From: Acidobacteriota bacterium
GTDB taxonomy: Bacteria > Acidobacteriota > UBA4820 > DSQY01
DNA: 49,921 nucleotides
Direction of reading: 5' to 3'
Assembly (NCBI GenBank): GCA_021787565.1
Contig: JAJYLT010000028.1
Span: forward strand, 1 to 49,921
Shown here: positions 36,516-37,368 of the stretch, piece by piece
How the letters are laid out: every line of letters begins with the position of its first letter
How positions within the stretch are numbered: position 1 is the stretch's first letter
The notes under the pieces: generated by a model
What the model was told of the DNA's origin: nothing
The model's database searches: none
The model's input: the letters and a program-made list of their open reading frames with translations, nothing else
Position numbers and translations under genes: made by a program

Positions 36516-36591
36516 GCGGGAATAGCTCAGTTGGTAGAGCACAACCTTGCCAAGGTTGGGGTCGCGGGTTCGAATCCCGTTTCCCGCTCCA
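36516..36591 (+). tRNA. tRNA-Gly (GCC), CCA encoded
   Basis: A full cloverleaf can be drawn. Acceptor GCGGGAA (36516-36522) pairs with TTCCCGC (36581-36587); the D-arm holds GCTCAGTTGGTAGAGC. The anticodon stem-loop is CAACC-TTGCCAA-GGTTG with anticodon GCC at 36549-36551. The T-arm is GCGGGTTCGAATCCCGT. CCA is encoded at 36589-36591. It is followed at once by a terminator and by tandem repeats carrying its 3' end. Confidence 0.96.
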
Positions 36592-37368
36592 GAAGAGAGC
36601 AGCGAGAGGGGCCGAGAGGCCCCTTTTGGTTTGCCCGGTCAGAAAGCTCAAGGGATTCGAAGCCGCGACCCGGCGAGGGGGCGCGGGGGACGGGGAGGTC
36701 CCCCGCCCAAAGGCCCGCCCGCGTGAGGGCAGGGAGGAGCAGGGCACGCAGTGCCCGCCGAGGAGGGGCGGCTGAGCCCCTCCTCGGGGAGCGGGAGCGA
36801 CGGAGCGTGGTTCGAATCCCGTTTCCCGCTCCAGAAGAGAGCAGCGAGAGGGGCCGAGAGGCCCCTTTTGGTTTGCCCGGTCAGAAAGCTCAAGGGATTC
36901 GAAGCCGCGACCCGGCGAGGGGGCGCGGGGGACGGGGAGGTCCCCCGCCCAAAGGCCCGCCCGCGTGAGGGCAGGGAGGAGCAGGGCACGCAGTGCCCGC
37001 CGAGGAGGGGCGGCTGAGCCCCTCCTCGGGGAGCGGGAGCGACAGAGCGTGGTTCGAATCCCGTTTCCCGCTCCAGAAGAGAGCAGCAAGAGGGGCCGAG
37101 AGGCCCCTTTTGGTTTGCCCGGCCAGAAAGCTCAAGGGATTCGAAGCCGCGACCCGGCGAGGGCGCGCGGGGGACGGGGAGGTCCCCCGCCCAAAGGCCC
37201 GCCCGCGTAAGGGCAGGGAGGAGCAGGGCACGCAGTGCCCGCCGAGGAGGGGCGGCTGAGCCCCTCCTCGGGGAGCGGGAGCGACGGAGCGTGGTTCGAA
37301 TCCCGTTTCCCGCTCCAGAAGAGAGCAGCGAGAGGGGCCGAGAGGCCCCTTTTGGTTTGCCCGGCCAG
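36568..37368 (+). repeat. Tandem 242-bp repeat carrying the tRNA-Gly 3' end (3.3 copies)
   Basis: The tRNA-derived 3' tail (GTTCGAATCCCGTTTCCCG plus CTCCA) begins at 36568 (in the tRNA), 36810, 37052 and 37294, a period of exactly 242 bp. Units 1-3 are full; the fourth stops after about 75 bp at 37368, where similarity ends. Units are near-identical, with a few single-base differences. Each unit holds a terminator (as at 36607-36627), an inverted T-arm-like sequence (36652-36671 in unit 1), several GC hairpins including an 11-bp stem (36759-36769 with 36776-36786), and the tRNA tail of the next unit. Arg-rich reading frames of 88 codons recur but are probably not genes. Confidence 0.93.
36607..36627 (+). 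terminator. Rho-independent terminator after tRNA-Gly (repeated in each unit)
   Basis: AGGGGCC-GAGA-GGCCCCT followed by TTT. Copies recur at 242-bp intervals (near 36849, 37091 and 37333), giving four terminators. Confidence 0.85.

Follow-up and report, generated by a model that had tools for sequence, protein, structure and literature searches.

The window, that is the whole stretch of 49,921 nucleotides analysed here, carries behind a tRNA-Gly(GCC) gene a tandem array to which we give an even chance of being a run of a small non-autonomous mobile element, directed by a guide and building arrays by retargeting itself. The window is contig C7 of a source assembly of 3.47 Mb in 77 contigs. TRF placed the array at positions 36567-37368 with a period of 242, 3.3 copies, 98% matches and a score of 1562, the second-best array in the window scoring 73. 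The array consists of three 242-bp units and a 76-bp partial unit 3' of the tRNA gene; TRF, ARAGORN and Rfam agree in this with the tandem 242-bp repeats carrying the 3' end of tRNA-Gly that a sequence-only reading had described. It begins inside the tRNA gene, bases 1-25 of unit 1 being the tRNA's own 3' end, and the later units open with GGTTCGAATCCCGTTTCCCGCTCCA (T-arm, acceptor and CCA) followed by the terminator hairpin of the tRNA gene. Each unit is formed by 76 bp of local flank (tRNA 3' end and terminator) and a structured element of about 166 bp, and the duplicated repeat extends about 51 bp beyond the tRNA into local sequence. Every unit includes an antisense copy of the T-arm, GGGATTCGAAGCCGCGACCC, at 36652-36671 and again at +242 and +484. 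The features of the array are the following, with the guides named after their proposed role.

36516..36591, + strand: tRNA-Gly (GCC), the target gene (ARAGORN; Rfam RF00005, 72.8 bits)
36559..36578, + strand: original uninterrupted target GGGTCGCG|GGTTCGAATCCC, junction 36566/36567 (guide pairing at 19/20 positions)
36567..36808, + strand: unit 1, with flank 36567-36642 and element 36643-36808 (TRF; DNA self-match)
36608..36627, + strand: terminator-like hairpin and T-run of the tRNA gene, present in each flank (read from the sequence)
36652..36671, + strand: putative guide 1, GGGATTCGAAGCCGCGACCC, antisense to the tRNA T-arm across the junction (complementarity to target)
36670..36806, + strand: structured core 1 (covariance model R1, 110.5 bits)
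36683..36706, + strand: covarying hairpin 1 of core 1 (99.8% of cells paired; both-side changes in 6/9 pairs)
36758..36787, + strand: covarying hairpin 3 of core 1 (both-side changes in 12/12 pairs)
36809..36833, + strand: first duplicated tRNA 3' end, GGTTCGAATCCCGTTTCCCGCTCCA, with more copies at 37051 and 37293 (DNA self-match)
36809..37050, + strand: unit 2 (DNA self-match)
36894..36913, + strand: putative guide 2 (sequence as guide 1, +242)
36912..37048, + strand: structured core 2 (covariance model R1, 112.4 bits)
37051..37292, + strand: unit 3 (DNA self-match)
37136..37155, + strand: putative guide 3 (sequence as guide 1, +484)
37154..37290, + strand: structured core 3 (covariance model R1, 107.1 bits)
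37293..37368, + strand: partial unit, a final flank copy without guide and without core (TRF; sequence; DNA self-match)

The units are 98-100% identical to each other inside the array, separated by distinguishing substitutions at a few bases, and 97% identical to the unit of the same-genus genome G001, which has one unit and a partial at the same site against three in the window. These figures bear out the recent amplification or homogenisation proposed in the sequence-only reading. At this tRNA gene one or more units are present in several relatives as well, and the last units of arrays are often truncated.

Search of the unit against its own genome gave 21 matches, which, the array aside, covered approximately unit positions 66-202 and were spread over nine further contigs, in most cases not near a tRNA gene. 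A covariance model, R1, built from an alignment of 16 cores, detected the element in 12 of the 13 genomes and in all six genera of the order (Candidatus Aminicenantes), with 33 matches in the own genome, about 25 of them strong. The sites were mostly 3' ends of protein genes, where no common att sequence was found, and one insertion (L017) lies antisense over a gene start. The association with tRNA genes nevertheless recurs across the order, tRNA-Gly(GCC) being occupied in most genomes. With the core dispersed mostly at protein genes, the tRNA-specificity implied by the sequence-only reading was not upheld; its counter-proposal, a general mobile repeat unrelated to tRNAs, is right as to the dispersal and wrong as to the tRNAs, which are recurrent targets both in the order and in other phyla.

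A phylum-wide covariance search gave convincing matches in the order only, but because it used stricter filters and scored few candidates per genome, the absence of R1 elsewhere in the phylum is weak evidence. The sole R1 match outside the order (L116, G340:C17:11561-11679) was an unrelated simple short tandem repeat, CACGGGATTCACTCCCGCGCGAGCGGGGG...AGCTCAAATAGCGAG. Five near-identical cores of genome G000 (L010, L012, L015, L018 and L019, on contigs C29, C49, C33, C58 and C44, respectively) were situated within a larger dispersed repeat with shared flanks, and these seem to have been carried along by another repeat family. At one tRNA-Gly (GCC) gene (L031, genome G012) the antisense T-arm segment GGGATTGGAACCCGAGACC stands alone behind the tRNA, with neither core nor copy, and is either a remnant or an unfilled state.

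The element inserts: both filled and empty orthologous sites, the general criterion for a mobile element, were found. In G000 and G001 a DHH-family gene located behind an aminotransferase gene has the element together with a duplication of 68 bp, while G002, G005 and G007 have a single gene start without the core. The site at a radical-SAM gene is filled in G000, G003 and G004 and empty in G002, G005, G006 and G008, of which G006 and G008 belong to the same genus as G003. Homologous genes were also occupied in different genera (thiolase A in three genomes, thiolase B in four and lpdA in two), reflecting either vertical descent with loss or repeated targeting.

In the orientation of the element the loci have the layout A|S..X - S'A' - core - S..X. 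Here S..X stands for local sequence that occurs on both sides of the element, usually 33-110 bp from the 3' end of a gene. S'A' is a segment of 8-20 nt directly before the core; its reverse complement spans the junction A|S as it stands in the uninterrupted site. The duplicated flank and the adjacent guide were present at most loci with enough flank. Examples of guide and target are GGGATTCGAAGCCGCGACCC for GGGTCGCGGGTTCGAATCCC in the window, GCCGCCGCAG for CTGCGGCGGC at the radical-SAM gene, GGCGTGGCAGG for CCTGCCACGCC at lpdA and CCGCCGAGGCAG for CTGCCTCGGCGG at thiolase B, gene names having been assigned by eye from translated C-termini rather than by family search; at the tRNA-Gly of G008 the match covers 19/19 positions. 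The longest complementary run was on average 9.6 nt, against 5.2 nt when guides and targets were swapped between loci and 4.9 nt with shuffled guides.

When G-U pairs were allowed, the guide fitted the original site better than the downstream copy at 24 of 32 loci, with five ties and three worse (Wilcoxon p = 2e-5), some of these loci being orthologous and thus not all independent. In the tRNA-type units the copy is altered exactly at the A bases covered by the guide (GGTCGCG to GGAGCGT), and therefore only the intact site is fully matched. The better fit to the intact site disfavours the antisense segment as a closing stem only. The A part of the guide match varied from 0 to 7 nt and the distance from target to core from about 50 to 200 nt, a fixed offset not being visible. 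In the open-access literature we found no description of an antisense T-arm segment, either for RtT or in any other context.

The core is about 130-150 nt long, with several hairpins and an RNA-like fold. Two of its hairpins covaried strongly over 58 cores, with both-side changes in 20 of the 26 pairs and 189 both-side-change cells against 49.5 in shuffles and 20-41 in slid controls, in an alignment that was fitted to the covariance model and is biased towards its structure. At one hairpin position 21 G-C and 21 G-U cells were found on the modelled strand, which points to an RNA of that strand. Single-sequence folds predicted one domain for the window unit (z -3.7) and the G008 unit (z -4.8), with pairing of guide and copy at its base.

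The core meets the target with its 3' end at the junction A|S, and since the sequence downstream of A|S is present both before and after the element, the gene stays intact. We propose that the guide acts as RNA or single-stranded DNA by pairing with A|S, and that an enzyme directed by this pairing would link the core, at its 3' end, to S. With the upstream A|S left intact, the same place could be targeted again, producing A-[S..X-guide-core]n-S..X, and recombination between the long direct repeats may then expand, shrink and homogenise the array. The tRNA 3' end would form part of the unit for no other reason than that it flanks the site.

None of the enzymes considered is a clear candidate. 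Reverse transcriptase was present in only 4 of the 13 genomes, uncorrelated with the element, and was rejected as the mobility enzyme. The same applies to the RAYT/Y1 transposases, which are widespread (Y1 transposases in 10 of the 13 genomes), yet no hairpins of the type at the core end were seen beside the RAYT loci examined. Nearly every protein locus has a guide of its own, so the guides cannot simply descend from a single donor; each insertion must involve adapting or copying one, a step for which the plain guide model has no explanation. At an M13-type peptidase gene (G000 and G001) two duplication starts resembled re-use of a guide, but a deletion between two copies of GCCAAGG accounts for them.

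The same plan was detected in other lineages. The junction string GCGACGGAGCGTGGTTCRA had 16 exact genome matches, of which nine showed the full layout, two in Aminicenantes and seven in Nitrospirota, and the other seven looked coincidental; in viral contigs it had no exact match. The seven Nitrospirota loci, at tRNA-Asp, tRNA-Gly(TCC) and tRNA-Gly(CCC), have an antisense T-arm, a different hairpin core and a tRNA 3'-end copy; they were selected by GCGACGGAGCGTGGTTCRA, and the antisense segment and the core lie outside this search string. In two of those at tRNA-Gly (L122 and L127) the core has an extra block of about 65 nt containing CGCGACGCGAGGAATAACGAGCGTCACG, part of which is shared by a truncated second element at L119. 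In the window's own phylum, a T-arm followed by an antisense T-arm was found in 53 of 396 genomes, against one for the reversed control. All 26 of these loci that were inspected lie behind a tRNA, none with a convergent tRNA, and 19 have a further tRNA 3'-end copy above the local null. The pattern loci (L140-L167) belong mainly to a second family of the phylum, f23, and have other cores at Arg, Thr, Ser, Pro and Gln tRNAs, some of them in tandem. At least two core types occur among them, the junction being in the T-loop in the Ser type and in the T-stem in the Arg, Thr and Pro types.

The parallel with the E. coli tyrT operon drawn in the sequence-only reading proved closer than it had stated, the K-12 units also having an antisense copy of the T-arm of their own tRNA: GGGGAAGGATGAGAAGCTTCGA, which precedes the core, matches the reverse complement of tRNA-Tyr in 19 of 22 positions. 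RtT repeats at tRNA-Pro of E. coli and Salmonella have a different antisense segment, which fits tRNA-Pro at 15 of 17 positions. At both tRNAs the guides keep a conserved GATGAGAA motif and a 2-nt mismatch. In K-12 MG1655 (NC_000913.3, approximately 3,708,300-3,708,615; L168) proK is followed by one complete RtT-like unit and a second, truncated unit; they are unannotated in this record, while other E. coli records annotate an RtT sRNA there. In E. coli O157:H7 and ST131 (H78 and H88) the proK match consists of two overlapping pieces covering about 83% of the query, without RtT annotation, and looks like the loss of a unit that left flank, guide and truncated core.

It is possible, although we consider it rather unlikely, that no dedicated machinery is involved and that the core spreads rarely through template switching in replication or repair. 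The antisense segment would then arise by snap-back copying of the original site and the long direct repeat by a second switch, and the tandem array would result from slippage or from unequal recombination. The guides do look locally made, being distinct for each locus and perfect over about 10 nt, and fresh snap-back copying would explain why the protein loci have guides of their own. Reverse transcriptase is also absent from most carriers, last units are often truncated, and copy number varies as recombination predicts: RtT is present at 1-14 places per E. coli genome, and a 175-bp rtT VNTR separates two Salmonella Paratyphi A strains (PMC2658671). However, the order of original site, antisense segment, core and copy recurs at dozens of loci, also at homologous genes of several genera and with unrelated cores in several lineages. 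The GATGAGAA motif conserved at two tRNAs would not be expected from fresh local copying and argues for inheritance of the guide with adaptation.

Improbable in our view is a functional structured RNA of the RtT kind that does not move but acts in 3'-end processing or regulation of tRNA or mRNA, its antisense segment pairing as the 5' strand with the downstream gene-end copy in a closing stem and kept by compensatory change. The predicted fold closes the core by just this pairing, the core covaries, the tRNA association recurs across the order and in E. coli records RtT is listed as an sRNA that derives from the tyrT transcript by processing. Against this, pairing of the guide is better at the intact upstream site than at the copy, which in the tRNA-type units is changed exactly at the guide-covered bases, and there are clear empty sites, many unrelated protein genes among the targets and the insertion antisense over a gene start. 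The 3' ends of tRNA genes are frequent sites of tyrosine integrases, attR carrying a copy of the tRNA 3' end, and the direct repeats might thus be attL and attR in the scar of an integrase-type element. This is very improbable, since the repeat continues about 51 bp past the tRNA, the protein-gene sites share no att sequence, 242 bp holds no gene and the antisense guide is left unexplained. An artefact of copy number, conceivable in a fragmented assembly of 77 contigs and with an N gap in the homologous array on contig C73, is scarcely credible in the face of the substitutions that distinguish the units and of the relatives with at least one unit at the same gene, G001 having one and a partial.

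If the antisense segment really directs insertion, the guided element would represent a new sequence-guided mobility in bacteria made of very small parts, and there is a real chance that the window element is a new kind of guided mobile element. That the E. coli tyrT/RtT repeats have its layout too suggests that repeats bearing a guide form a class widespread in bacteria. More tentatively, and with somewhat less than even confidence, the window array, the tRNA repeats of Nitrospirota and f23 and E. coli RtT may form one previously unrecognised class of bacterial mobile RNA-like elements, in which a short 5' guide finds the target by base pairing, long target duplications keep the host gene intact and self-retargeting amplifies the element in tandem; in Aminicenantes the class would have escaped from tRNA genes to the ends of protein genes. 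The tyrT/RtT repeats have long been known but, to our knowledge, have no accepted origin. A plan common to several lineages (original site, antisense segment, core and gene-end copy) offers a testable account of the origin of such repeats and also accounts for the tRNA 3' end inside them.

Among known systems, Rfam detected no family above chance except tRNA in the window and 14 related loci. The element resembles MITEs and IS elements in its dispersal, its presence/absence polymorphism and its target duplication, but it has no constant terminal inverted repeats: its inverted repeat is locus-specific and its duplications are long and variable (33-110 bp). In group I and II introns and in IS200/IS605 a short internal sequence complementary to the uninterrupted target sets the site (IGS, EBS and end guide, respectively). 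By analogy these may be work-alikes of the element, which differs from them in duplicating its target over 33-110 bp and in being uncorrelated with reverse transcriptase. The group I intron core (Rfam Intron_gpI) had no match in the window and related loci, and for a group II intron or retroelement there was likewise no Rfam intron match, and reverse transcriptase occurred in 4 of the 13 genomes. Like the REPs and BIMEs, the element is a small dispersed palindromic repeat near gene 3' ends, and the 3' end of its core, GCGCGAC, is GTCGCGC when read on the opposite strand, which has no more than a superficial likeness to the CGTC tag. REP/BIME and RAYT systems have REPs tagged with GTAG or CGTC (PMC3733652). 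The 20-40-nt tagged palindrome beside a RAYT gene differs from the window type in size and structure, the latter having a core of 130-150 nt with several hairpins, a locus-specific guide and duplications of 33-110 bp, and no matching hairpin was seen beside the RAYT loci examined.

The closest resemblance is to RtT (Rfam RF00391), which forms tandem units of 171-178 bp behind tRNA-Tyr and also behind tRNA-Pro (proK). In both systems each unit ends in a tRNA 3' end with CCA, an antisense T-arm of the own tRNA precedes a core of multiple hairpins, and the number of units varies between strains or genomes. The cores are unrelated in sequence: RF00391 had no match in the window and related loci up to E = 1 and 5. 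A search of phage records for the E. coli RtT core found just one mis-filed Salmonella contig. The junction of RtT is in the T-loop (TTCG|AATCC) and that of the window element before GGTTC; unlike the window element, RtT adds a sense copy of the A part, and it was seen only after tRNAs, whereas the window element also occupies protein genes. As judged from these sequences, what the window array and RtT have in common is the architecture and not the core, and the window system, although not a member of the RtT family by sequence, appears to work like the RtT repeats.
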